A program made the position numbers and the translations under genes. From Amycolatopsis alkalitolerans (GTDB taxonomy: Bacteria > Actinomycetota > Actinomycetes > Mycobacteriales > Pseudonocardiaceae), in the NCBI RefSeq assembly GCF_006152065.1, contig NZ_VDFW01000003.1, forward strand, positions 248,001-312,000: a stretch of DNA of 64,000 bases, read 5' to 3'. This document shows positions 32,855-36,402 of the stretch, piece by piece. A model generated the notes under the pieces. That model was not told the origin of the DNA. It saw only the letters and a program-made list of their open reading frames with translations, and ran no database searches. Position 1 is the stretch's first letter, and every line of letters begins with the position of its first letter.

Positions 32855-33056
32855 GCCAACGCTCGTTTAACACACGTCACCCCGCCTCGCATGCTGCGAC
32901 ACGGGGTGCGTAGACTGTCTAGTCGGCGTACTCAGCACGCCGAGTCCAGCGCGCTCGTGAACAGTTTTTCAGCTTTGGAGTCGGAGTGCCGTGTGCGTCG
33001 GCACCACCTAGGCAGGCAAGAACGGTGCGCAGCCATTATCACGAAACGCGGAGGAC
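32855..33056 (+). promoter_or_regulatory. infA promoter and leader
   Basis: A TAGACT -10 box lies at 32911-32916. An inverted repeat CACCCCG (32878-32884)/CGGGGTG (32902-32908) straddles the place where the -35 would be, and no good -35 hexamer is seen. A 7-bp hairpin TCGGCGT/ACGCCGA (32923-32929/32937-32943) lies just downstream in the transcript. The 202-nt region has no supported gene. Confidence 0.45.
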
Positions 33057-33278
33057 ATGGCTAAGAAAGACGGGGCCATCGAGGTCGAGGGTCGCGTGGT
33101 CGAGCCACTCCCCAACGCGATGTTCCGAGTCGAGTTGGAGAACGGCCACAAGGTCCTGGCACATATCAGCGGCAAGATGCGGCAGCACTACATCCGCATC
33201 CTGCCGGAGGACCGGGTCGTCGTGGAGCTCTCGCCCTACGACTTGTCCCGTGGTCGCATCGTCTACCGCTACAAGTGA
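33057..33278 (+). CDS. infA: Translation initiation factor IF-1
   Basis: This protein has 73 residues, an S1-like OB fold ([19 protein letters not shown], then [19 protein letters not shown]). ATG at 33057 follows GCGGAGG. It occupies the ribosomal A site during initiation. It heads the infA-rpmJ-rpsM group. Confidence 0.98.
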
Positions 33279-33311
33279 TGACGGTGAGCAACGCATAAGG
33301 AAGCAGGAGAC

Positions 33312-33425
33312 GTGAAGGTTCAGCCGAGCGTCAAGAAGATCTGCGACAAGTGCAAGGTGATCCGCCGCCACGGCCGGATCATGGTGATCTGCGAGAACCT
33401 GCGTCACAAGCAGCGTCAGGGCTGA
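33312..33425 (+). CDS. rpmJ: 50S ribosomal protein L36, zinc-binding form
   Basis: This protein has 37 residues. GTG at 33312 has GCAGGAG upstream. It opens [16 protein letters not shown] and carries the zinc ligands Cys11, Cys14, Cys27 and His32, so it is the C+ form. It is 33 nt after infA. Confidence 0.97.
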
Positions 33426-33627
33426 TCGCGCACTCCGCGCAGAGCGGATTGACGGCGAAAACCTCCCCGCACCTGCCGCGCCCGAACGGGCACGGCACAC
33501 CCCCGGACTCCAGGCCGGGGCCGGGACACCAGCCGCGCGAGCGGATGGCAAGACAGCGAGTCGGTCCCGGGACCGGGTGGGGAGCACACCTGGAGCCAGC
33601 AGAAACCACGAAGGAGCTAGAGCCGCC
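33426..33627 (+). promoter_or_regulatory. Structured leader of the rpsM (alpha) operon
   Basis: This 202-nt gap has no supported gene. It holds at least four inverted repeats: TCCGC/GCGGA (33434-33438/33444-33448), GCCCG-AA-CGGGC (33480-33491), CCCCGG/CCGGGG (33501-33506/33515-33520) and the 14-nt palindrome CGGTCCCGGGACCG (33562-33575). The rpsM ribosome-binding site AAGGAG is at about 33611. In E. coli S4 represses the alpha operon through its leader; a similar role here is only a possibility. Confidence 0.45.
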
Positions 33628-34008
33628 ATGGCACGACTCGCCGGCGTCGATCTCCCCCGCGAGAAGCGGTTGGAGATCGCGCTGACTTACATCTACGGCA
33701 TCGGCCGTACCCGCTCCAAGGAGCTCATCGCGGCATCGGCCCTGAACCCGGACACCCGGGTGCGGGACCTTTCCGACGACGACCTCGTCAAGCTGCGGGA
33801 CTACATCGAAGAGAACTTCAAGGTCGAGGGTGACCTTCGCCGCGAGGTGAACGCCGATATCCGGCGCAAGATCGAGATCGGCACCTACCAGGGGCTGCGG
33901 TGGCGGCGCGGACTTCCCGTCCGTGGCCAGCGCACCAAGACCAACGCCCGTACCCGCAAGGGGCCGAAGAAGACGGTCGCCGGCAAGAAGAAGGCTGGCA
34001 AGAAGTGA
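33628..34008 (+). CDS. rpsM: 30S ribosomal protein S13
   Basis: This protein has 126 residues. ATG at 33628 ([21 protein letters not shown]), with AAGGAG upstream. It contains GIGRTRS and the basic tail [17 protein letters not shown]. It contacts the P-site tRNA and L5. Its stop overlaps the next small gene by 4 nt (GTGA). Confidence 0.97.
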
Positions 34009-34196
34009 GCGTCCAGGGCAAGAAGGTCGTGCGGATGCGCGGTCAGCGCCTCACGCACGCGTCAGCTGTTTCGCCGAAGGCTCTCTACGCCCGCCCGATG
34101 GCCCTGCGCCAGCTCTACGCCGACGCCGGTTCCGTGATCCGGCGCGGGCAGCAGGAAGCGCGCATGGCCGCCGAGCAGACCGACAACTCGCGCTAA
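34005..34196 (+). CDS. Novel 63-residue basic protein embedded in the alpha operon
   Basis: GTG at 34005 overlaps the rpsM stop (GTGA), and TAA at 34194-34196 lies just before the rpsK ribosome-binding site (GAGGAG, 34199-34204), so the gene fills the whole rpsM-rpsK gap. Nearly all codons end in G or C. The product starts [16 protein letters not shown], has a middle [18 protein letters not shown] and a helical Arg/Gln/Glu end. Net charge is about +8, with no Cys, Trp or membrane segment. rpsM and rpsK are normally adjacent. A ribosome-associated protein is plausible from charge and position. I recognise no family. Confidence 0.7.
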
Positions 34197-34215
34197 CGAG
34201 GAGAATCACCCCCAC

Positions 34216-34620
34216 ATGCCACCCAAGTCTCGTACCGCCGGGACCAAGAAGGTCCGGCGGAAGGAAAAGAAGAACGTGGCCCACGGCCACGCGCACATCA
34301 AGAGCACGTTCAACAACACGATCGTGTCCATCACCGACCCGAACGGCGCGGTGATCTCGTGGGCGTCGTCGGGCCACGTCGGGTTCAAGGGCTCGCGCAA
34401 GTCCACCCCGTTCGCCGCCCAGATGGCCGCCGAGAACGCCGCCCGCAAGGCCGCGGAGCACGGCATGAAGAAGGTCGACGTCTTCGTGAAGGGCCCGGGT
34501 TCGGGCCGCGAGACGGCGATCCGCTCGCTGCAGGCCGCCGGTCTCGAGGTCGGCACCATCCAGGACGTGACCCCGCAGCCGCACAACGGTTGCCGCCCGC
34601 CCAAGCGGCGCCGGGTCTGA
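34216..34620 (+). CDS. rpsK: 30S ribosomal protein S11
   Basis: This protein has 134 residues. ATG at 34216 ([20 protein letters not shown]). It contains [18 protein letters not shown] and [16 protein letters not shown], the tail near the mRNA exit. GAGGAG lies 11 nt upstream. Confidence 0.97.
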
Positions 34621-34643
34621 GGAACGGGGAGGAGTAACAGAAC

Positions 34644-35249
34644 ATGGCTCGCTACACCGGCCCCGCGACTCGAGTCTCGCGGCGCCTCAAGGTTGACCTG
34701 ATCGGCGGCGACCAGGCTTTCGAGCGTCGCCCGTACCCGCCCGGCCAGCACGGCCGCGGCCGGGTAAAGGAGAGCGAATACCTGCTCCAGCTGCAGGAGA
34801 AGCAGAAGGCCCGGCACACCTACGGCGTGCTGGAGAAGCAGTTCAGCCGCTACTACAAGGAAGCGGCGCGCCGGCAGGGCAAGACCGGTGAGAACCTGCT
34901 GCAGATCCTGGAGTCCCGGCTGGACAACGTGATCTACCGCGCAGGTATCGCGCGCACCCGCCGCCAGGCTCGCCAGCTGGTGTCCCACGGGCACTTCCTG
35001 GTCAACGGCGTCAAGGTGAACATCCCCAGCTACCAGGTGACCAAGTGGGACATCATCGACGTGCGGTCCAAGTCGCTGTCGATGCTGCCGTTCGTGGCCG
35101 CGAAGGAATCGTTCGGAGACCGCCCCATCCCGGCCTGGCTGCAGGTCGTGCCGTCCAACCTCCGTGTCCTGGTGCACCAGCTCCCCGAGCGGGCCCAGAT
35201 CGAGGTTCCGGTGCAGGAACAGCTGATCGTCGAGTTCTACTCGAAGTGA
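34644..35249 (+). CDS. rpsD: 30S ribosomal protein S4
   Basis: This protein has 201 residues. ATG at 34644 has GGGGAGGAG upstream. The N-terminus ([19 protein letters not shown]) lacks the zinc cysteines, so it is the C-minus form. The S4 RNA-binding domain ([20 protein letters not shown], then HGHFLVNG) is intact. It initiates 30S assembly. Confidence 0.97.
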
Positions 35250-35255
35250 TCACCG

Positions 35256-35283
35256 GTGGCGGCACGCACCCGCGTGCCGCCAC
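35256..35283 (+). other. Hairpin between rpsD and rpoA
   Basis: A perfect 12-bp stem (GTGGCGGCACGC 35256-35267 with 35272-35283) closes on an ACCC loop, 6 nt after the rpsD stop. Only a weak T-run follows (CCCTTTC at about 35293), so it may be a partial attenuator or mRNA stabiliser separating r-protein from RNA polymerase expression. Confidence 0.7.
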
Positions 35284-35340
35284 TACGCCATCCCTTTCGG
35301 CGTCATATGGCGGGCGCCGGCAGGAAAGGAAAGAACGAAA

Positions 35341-36402
35341 GTGCTGATTTCACAGCGACCGGCCCTCGGCGAGGAGCCGATCAACGAGACACGGTCCCGG
35401 TTCACCATCGAGCCGCTGGAGCCGGGCTTCGGCTACACCCTCGGCAACTCGCTGCGGCGCACGCTGCTGTCGTCCATCCCGGGCGCGGCGGTCACGAGCA
35501 TCCGCATCGACGGGGTGCTGCACGAGTTCACCACCGTCCCGGGGGTGAAGGAAGACGTCACCGACATCATCCTGAACCTCAAGGAGCTGGTCGTCTCGTC
35601 CGAAGAGGACGAGCCGGTCACCATGTACCTGCGCAAGCAGGGCCCGGGCGAGGTCACCGCGGCGGACATCGTGCCGCCCGCGGGTGTCACCGTGCACAAC
35701 CCCGATCTGCACATCGCCTCGCTGAACGGCAAGGGCAAGCTGGAGATCGAGCTGGTCGTCGAGCGCGGCCGGGGGTACGTGCCGGCCCTGCAGAACAAGC
35801 AGGCCGGTGCCGAGATCGGCCGGATCCCGGTCGACTCGATCTACTCGCCCGTGCTGAAGGTCACCTACAAGGTCGAGGCGACCCGTGTCGAGCAGCGCAC
35901 CGACTTCGACAAGCTGATCGTGGACGTGGAGACCAAGCCGTCGATCACGCCCCGGGACGCGGTCGCGTCGGCCGGCAAGACGCTGGTGGAGCTGTTCGGT
36001 CTCGCGCGCGAGCTGAACGTCGACGCCGAGGGCATCGAGATCGGCCCGTCGCCGCAGGAAGCGGACACCATCGCCGCCTACGCGATGCCGATCGAGGACC
36101 TGGACCTCACGGTCCGGTCGTACAACTGCCTCAAGCGCGAGGGTATCCACACGGTCGGCGAGCTCGTTTCGCGCAGCGAGGCGGACCTGCTCGACATCCG
36201 CAACTTCGGTGCCAAGTCGATCGACGAGGTGAAGCTGAAGCTGGTGGGCCTGGGCCTCGCGCTCAAGGACAGCCCGCCCGGGTTCGACCCGACGACCGCC
36301 GCCGCCACCTACGACGGCGAAGGCTGGTCCGACAGCGTCGACGGTATTTCCGATGCTGGCCACGACGACGGCCAGGACTACGCAGAGACGGAGCAGCTGT
36401 AG
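35341..36402 (+). CDS. rpoA: RNA polymerase alpha subunit
   Basis: This protein has 353 residues. GTG at 35341 has AGGAAAGGAAAG upstream. The N-terminal dimerisation domain ([20 protein letters not shown]) and the C-terminal DNA-binding domain ([30 protein letters not shown]) are intact. A linker and an acidic tail ([12 protein letters not shown]) follow the usual actinobacterial pattern. Confidence 0.98.

Follow-up and report, generated by a model that had tools for sequence, protein, structure and literature searches.

What is a small, basic reading frame doing between rpsM and rpsK in Amycolatopsis alkalitolerans? We addressed this question in a 64,000-nucleotide stretch of its genome (contig NZ_VDFW01000003.1, positions 248,001 to 312,000), hereafter called the window, whose own numbering is used throughout; all features named below lie on its + strand.

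The gene at the rpsM-rpsK junction

The small ORF (34005..34196), whose product we call the rpsM-rpsK small protein, encodes 63 amino acids from a GTG start and lies between rpsM (33628..34008), the gene for S13, and rpsK (34216..34620, with its ATG at 34216), the gene for S11. It shares its strand and 4 nt with rpsM, as the GTG at 34005 overlaps the rpsM TGA (34006-34008) in a GTGA start/stop overlap (34005..34008) that suggests coupling by re-initiation. At its other end, the TAA (34194-34196) lies 19 nt from the rpsK ATG, and the rpsK ribosome-binding site, GAGGAG (34198..34203), occupies part of this spacer. The product has 12 K/R and 4 D/E residues, a net charge of +8, a pI of 11.5 and a mass of 7.0 kDa. 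A preliminary description of this DNA had reported that the space between rpsM and rpsK is taken up entirely by a basic frame of 63 codons, whose start shares a GTGA with the end of rpsM and whose stop lies 3 nt ahead of the rpsK ribosome-binding site, here its GGAG part (34200-34203); we re-derived the coordinates and the charge from the sequence, and the observation as first noted was confirmed.

Most printed gaps of genomes without the small gene (hereafter non-carriers) also have a GGAG-type site before rpsK. For the small ORF itself, a possible ribosome-binding site is GAAGG (33990..33994), located within the end of rpsM and 10 nt before the GTG. GAAGGC was present in 19 of 19 sequences of one alignment (A2), but given that GAAGG also encodes the S13 tail, its conservation proves nothing. 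Promoter-like and terminator-like sites were looked for on the + strand between 33000 and 36500, and none was found.

Distribution of homologues in Pseudonocardiaceae

The preliminary description had proposed a homologue search in Pseudonocardiales as a check. We searched a sample of 200 Pseudonocardiaceae genomes, initially with the window protein and then with a 35-sequence profile (alignment A1), and homologues were found in 82 genomes representing 19 of 46 genera, with one match per genome for the A1 profile. Within these carrier genera, 82 of the 83 genomes sampled have the gene, the remaining one (G049) lacks an rpsM hit, and no loss of the gene was seen. At all 151 loci bearing a relative, the ORF was intact directly before rpsK; this count includes repeats, many of them the same place fetched twice (an earlier count gave 90 distinct nucleotide sequences), and 149 loci were scored by script and two (L174 and L201) by eye, their S13 being frame-broken or cut in the draft. 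The 90 distinct homologues encode 58-68 amino acids and are all basic (+5 to +13, pI 10.4-12.0), and they start at an offset of -4 relative to the rpsM stop in 77 cases, -1 in five and +2 in eight. Among named records, from which that of the window itself may be missing, the nearest match to the window protein was found in Amycolatopsis acidicola, with 83% identity.

Two sub-families could be recognized. One comprises Amycolatopsis, Prauserella, Saccharomonospora, Haloechinothrix and Thermocrispum, with its own variant of the core motif, and the other Actinokineospora, Kibdelosporangium, Actinocrispum, Labedaea and Herbihabitans, with ...xPxALRDLYxDAG..xR... or close variants, preceded by an arginine-rich stretch.

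Beyond the family sample, in a core-peptide scan of one genome per species across 84,980 species, the pattern was matched 87 times and 69 loci were confirmed, labelled as Pseudonocardiaceae in 66 cases, as Rhodococcus in one, and without a family in two. One of the 69 loci belongs to a bin labelled as an unclassified 'Actinomycetes bacterium'. The locus labelled 'Rhodococcus rhodnii' NRRL B-16535 (L200, JOAA01000031.1) has S13-S11-S4 proteins that join Kibdelosporangium aridum in a tree with a branch length of zero, and judging from these sequences the Rhodococcus label is probably wrong. Another locus, labelled 'Candidatus Melainabacteria bacterium' (L201, CAJCJE010000099.1), is a 3404-base contig with an actinobacterial S11 and the small protein; as its length and frames match those of a contig of a family genome (G011), this taxon label also looks wrong. 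In Saccharomonospora sp. CUA-673 (L174), the beginning and the end of S13 lie in different frames in the draft, probably due to a sequencing or assembly error. Profile searches outside the family yielded two weak matches among 296 genomes at class level (E 0.0072 and 0.0078) and two among 150 genomes at order level (E 5.9e-4 and 0.0073), in searches that scored part of the first-look candidates, so that very divergent relatives could escape. We took these four matches as chance and rejected them as relatives; no rpsM was present in the surrounding 2-3 kb of any of them. The gene is a conserved one with a fixed place, restricted to part of one family.

Selection on the small protein

We measured selection mainly on 41 disjoint homologue pairs with 2-25% nucleotide difference. 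In the ORF frame, pN/pS was 0.271; the other two sense frames gave 1.82 and 2.32, while rpsM gave 0.147 in the same 41 pairs. The antisense frames gave 0.403, 1.54 and 2.61, the low first value presumably arising because silent positions in that frame face those of the sense frame. These pairs contained 288 nonsynonymous differences, versus 509 ± 10 with the same changes placed at random, and codon positions 1, 2 and 3 accounted for 152, 113 and 431 of the 696 differences. Ratios were higher when all 4005 pairs were used, with a median dN/dS of 0.56 versus 0.17 for rpsM; this median was taken over those 3650 pairs whose pS lay between 0.1 and 0.6, and 92% of them were below 1. Thus, the small protein evolves faster than S13 by both measures, and the small ORF also had more synonymous differences than rpsM. 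The dN/dS check suggested in the preliminary description hence detects purifying selection in the ORF frame that is lacking in the other two sense frames. As homologues were found too, the gene withstands the comparative part of the refutation proposed there.

Constraint was unevenly distributed along the protein. Residues 23-48 (34071..34148) form a conserved core and are the most constrained part, with a pN/pS over all pairs of 0.39, compared to 0.81 for the N-terminal and 0.69 for the C-terminal part. Besides the start Met, nine residues (P, A, L, R, L, Y, D, G, R) were invariant in the 35 sequences of A1, and eight residues were invariant in a 58-sequence alignment. Judged from intact homologues and these substitution patterns, the small ORF is a real protein-coding gene specific to this lineage.

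Empty sites and origin of the gene

The preliminary description had stated that rpsM and rpsK are adjacent in familiar actinobacterial operons, and the non-carriers bear this out. In 41 of them from the same family, the rpsM-rpsK gap measured -1 to 61 nt and held no such frame; they were examined out of 117 non-carriers in the 200-genome sample and cover 21 of 27 non-carrier genera. Given these short gaps, the small ORF is an insertion relative to its neighbours. In other families of the order, the gap measured -1 to 147 nt, and none of the 28 loci measured had an ORF of at least 50 aa ending before rpsK. At several loci with a gap of -1 (L067, L072, L077-L079, L100, L115 and L118), a single base is shared between the stop codon of rpsM and the start codon of rpsK (TAATG or TGATG); as these loci belong to several lineages, tight coupling of both genes recurs without the insert.

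To place the gain, S13, S11 and S4 were combined into a tree of 135 rows, 87 of distinct carriers and 48 of non-carriers. A free quick search on all rows implied two changes, with two non-carriers, L099 (g3) and L113 (g37), joining one carrier sub-clade at support 0; both of them carry the S13 Trp described below. A tree keeping the carriers together was 33.6 log units above the free-search tree (p-AU 0.879), and a smaller tree with 37 of the 87 carrier rows implied one change, with a branch support of 57. Given that the carriers-together tree was better and not rejected, one origin is the better reading. From these trees, the gene was probably gained once, probably in the ancestor of a clade including Amycolatopsis, Prauserella, Saccharomonospora, Haloechinothrix, Thermocrispum, Kibdelosporangium and Actinokineospora, and a later loss in g3 and g37 is possible. 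We rejected a mobile origin: the core-peptide scan of viral contigs returned 35 stretches that fit the pattern, none of which was confirmed as a relative, and tblastn with the single protein found no relative in plasmids. A single PHROGs match at 0.083 was taken as chance. The gene possibly arose de novo, which is compatible with the data.

Family and structure searches

The preliminary description had also stated that the product matches no ribosomal protein, and our searches agree. The window protein matched 0 families in Pfam and NCBIfam at E 10 or less, and the 35-sequence profile had 0 matches in the PDB at the same threshold. We took as chance the sole PDB match of the single protein, a weak one to a DegV protein (3egl, E 0.53), as well as the Pfam matches by single members to SpdB (0.024), SOTI (0.056) and Toxin_28 (0.18). 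In the open-access literature, seen mostly as titles and openings of abstracts, no paper was recognizable as dealing with the rpsM-rpsK small protein; subscription papers were outside the scope of this search. AlphaFold, run on A1, gave a poor model overall (pLDDT 62.5, pTM 0.27), in which residues 1-23 are unstructured, helices span residues 24-28 and 32-61, and confidence is best at residues 31-50. The best reading of this model is a small protein with a predicted unstructured basic N-terminus followed by a conserved helical core.

Evidence on a ribosomal role

The idea in the preliminary description that this might be a lineage-specific ribosomal or ribosome-associated protein holds in part: the protein is lineage-specific, basic and under purifying selection, and its start overlaps rpsM, while its binding to the ribosome is what we infer. 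Small size and basicity, as found here, are usual for bacterial ribosomal proteins and insufficient alone. Retention throughout the carrier lineage, seen in all but one of the sampled genomes of carrier genera, is also in keeping with such a role.

Codon usage was intermediate. The codon adaptation index (CAI) of the small ORF was 0.687, between the mean of 20 reference ribosomal-protein genes (0.755, range 0.62-0.89) and that of 116 background genes (0.608); this value was reached by 37% of 62-codon background pieces, while 8% of ribosomal-protein pieces were as low. The S13 gene itself had a CAI of 0.619, and homologues evaluated with the weights of the window ranged from 0.36 to 0.76. Given this intermediate CAI and a synonymous divergence higher than that of rpsM, the small ORF is at most a candidate for high expression. 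The GTGA overlap permits re-initiation at any efficiency, and the near-stoichiometric synthesis proposed in the preliminary description is one possible outcome.

Other ribosomal components were compared between carriers and non-carriers. In the S13 of the window, Trp92 (codon 33901-33903) replaces the His mostly seen in non-carriers, and the R-H-R-R motif of S13 reads R-W-R-R in all 56 carrier genomes checked. The same R-W-R-R was present in 12 of 41 family non-carriers, representing 4 of 21 genera (g3, g7, g11 and g37), and in none of 29 genomes from other families. Given that one origin makes carriers non-independent and that the Trp also occurs without the gene, we consider it a lead only, confounded with ancestry. 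S13 residue 92 underwent three state changes on the 135-row tree, which points to repeated change. A filter for co-change in S13, S11 and S4 (37 carrier versus 20 non-carrier rows) was passed by two columns, W at S13 92 and S at S11 52, and we judged the latter, an A-to-S difference, too mild to weigh as a signal. In 16S rRNA, no position separated carriers from non-carriers at thresholds of ≥90% of carriers and ≤25% of non-carriers (24 sequences from 15 carrier genera versus 26 from 18 non-carrier genera).

Proposed function and alternative explanations

We consider it somewhat better than an even bet that the small protein works on the ribosome, either as a structural protein or as an assembly or stability factor, two roles not separable here. 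Ribosomes finishing rpsM would re-initiate at the GTG of the small ORF, so that the small protein would be made along with small-subunit proteins. Its basic, unstructured N-terminal tail (about residues 1-23) may contact rRNA, while the C-terminal helix, conserved and modelled at residues 32-61, may dock on a protein or rRNA surface of the ribosome, plausibly at the small-subunit head near S13. The protein would then either belong to the ribosome as a peripheral component specific to this lineage or help to assemble or stabilize the 30S subunit. In this scheme, we infer the expression level, rRNA binding, position and function of the small protein.

The alternatives differ in what they take to be functional at this locus. 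If a longer spacer merely happened to contain a high-GC ORF, no function would be needed at all, and spurious frames are indeed common in high-GC genomes, with 65 ORFs of at least 30 aa between 31500 and 38000; however, purifying selection in frame and clade-wide retention make this reading negligible. Hardly more credible is an RNA element, such as a leader-like regulator or a protein-binding site, over which the ORF would be incidental. Such elements are frequent in ribosomal-protein operons, and S4 leader candidates are given for rpsM-rpsK-rpsD operons of Clostridia and Fusobacteriales in excerpts of a published paper (PMC7247131). Yet in our locus Rfam gave no match at E 1 or less over 33000-35400, the native RNA folded no better than shuffles (z +1.51, with 189 of 200 shuffles folding equally well or better), the covariation term was unfavourable, with a double change in 2 of 32 predicted pairs, and third codon positions hold 431 of the 696 differences. 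We rejected a ribosomal leader RNA because the conserved, covarying structure expected of it was not found.

A regulatory peptide, whose translation or nascent-chain stalling tunes the output of S11 versus S13 while the finished protein has no function, would suit a start that overlaps rpsM, an rpsK ribosome-binding site just past the stop and a core that is the most constrained part, and bacteria do have nascent arrest peptides, as described in excerpts of one article (PMC7897499). Nevertheless, 58-68 codons, a persistently basic N-terminus and a core ending about 15 codons before the stop resemble a working protein, and the examined non-carriers lack such a frame, so that we regard this explanation as improbable. 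Unlikely too, but deserving more weight, is that the basic protein uses the operon for growth-rate-matched expression and acts elsewhere, for instance on RNA polymerase, other RNA or DNA. Gene order by itself leaves the partner unfixed, proteins of this small, basic and helical type bind a wide range of nucleic acids, profile searches found no ribosomal relative, and the same cluster includes downstream an ORF (35341-36402) that, from its sequence, we take to be rpoA. Against this, the small gene was always directly between rpsM and rpsK and never beside rpoA across the 151 loci. Action on the ribosome thus remains the explanation that we prefer. Its fullest version, which we put forward tentatively and think doubtful as a whole, is that a new ribosomal protein arose de novo, or almost so, within the short rpsM-rpsK spacer of one actinobacterial clade, with the S13 His-to-Trp change at or before the same step, and has been kept since in carrier genera.

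Comparison with known small ribosomal proteins

How ribosomes acquire new proteins is stated to be unknown in excerpts of a study of microsporidian ribosomes (PMC10764239). The small protein is a candidate case from cultured soil actinobacteria: it forms two sub-families, its retention is nearly complete, and related genera show the empty site. If the reading as a new ribosomal protein is true, the empty sites in non-carrier genera would let its capture be dated and replayed, and if the protein is on the ribosome, Amycolatopsis and its relatives would have a component shown by no chain in the PDB copy searched. If it is not, it would still be a conserved protein specific to this lineage, with a reading frame that begins within the end of a core ribosomal gene.

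Small additional ribosomal proteins are a known kind in actinobacteria, and the small protein matches no solved chain searched. Excerpts of a study of the M. smegmatis ribosome describe two new proteins, one of them bL37, which is buried deep within a pocket of the rRNA and is described as restricted to high-GC actinobacteria (PMC5876184), and bS22 is described in Streptomyces in the portion consulted of another paper (PMC13118837). Similar to bL37 and bS22, the protein described here would be a small extra protein of restricted distribution. In contrast to both, its gene lies inside the rpsM-rpsK junction in part of one family only, and no sequence relation to them was found in Pfam and PDB searches. 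We take PF08213 (COX24_C) to be bS22; it matched in 187 of the 200 family genomes, carriers and most non-carriers alike, including a match elsewhere in the source genome (G000:C23:106827-106922). Replacement of bS22 was rejected, as 0 of 35 members match PF08213 and carriers have kept it. PF08213 was missing in 13 family genomes (10 of g38, two of g35 and one of g6), none of them in a carrier genus, which is possibly a lineage loss of a ribosomal protein.

A further likeness is to bS21 (Ribosomal_S21, PF01165), a small, basic, helical small-subunit protein, with which the small protein presumably shares a faint 'ALR...AG...R' pattern. None of the 35 members matched PF01165 at E 1 or less, and bS21 was over the cut-off in 0 of 100 family genomes searched, with two sub-threshold matches at E 0.005. 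Replacement of bS21 was also rejected, given that no member matches PF01165 and that the new gene tracks no bS21 loss. Finally, msL1 and msL2 of microsporidian ribosomes, as described in excerpts (PMC10764239), are eukaryotic and were found in ribosomes, while the small protein is known from sequence alone; if its ribosome binding is true, it would represent a bacterial counterpart of msL1 and msL2 with empty sites in its relatives.
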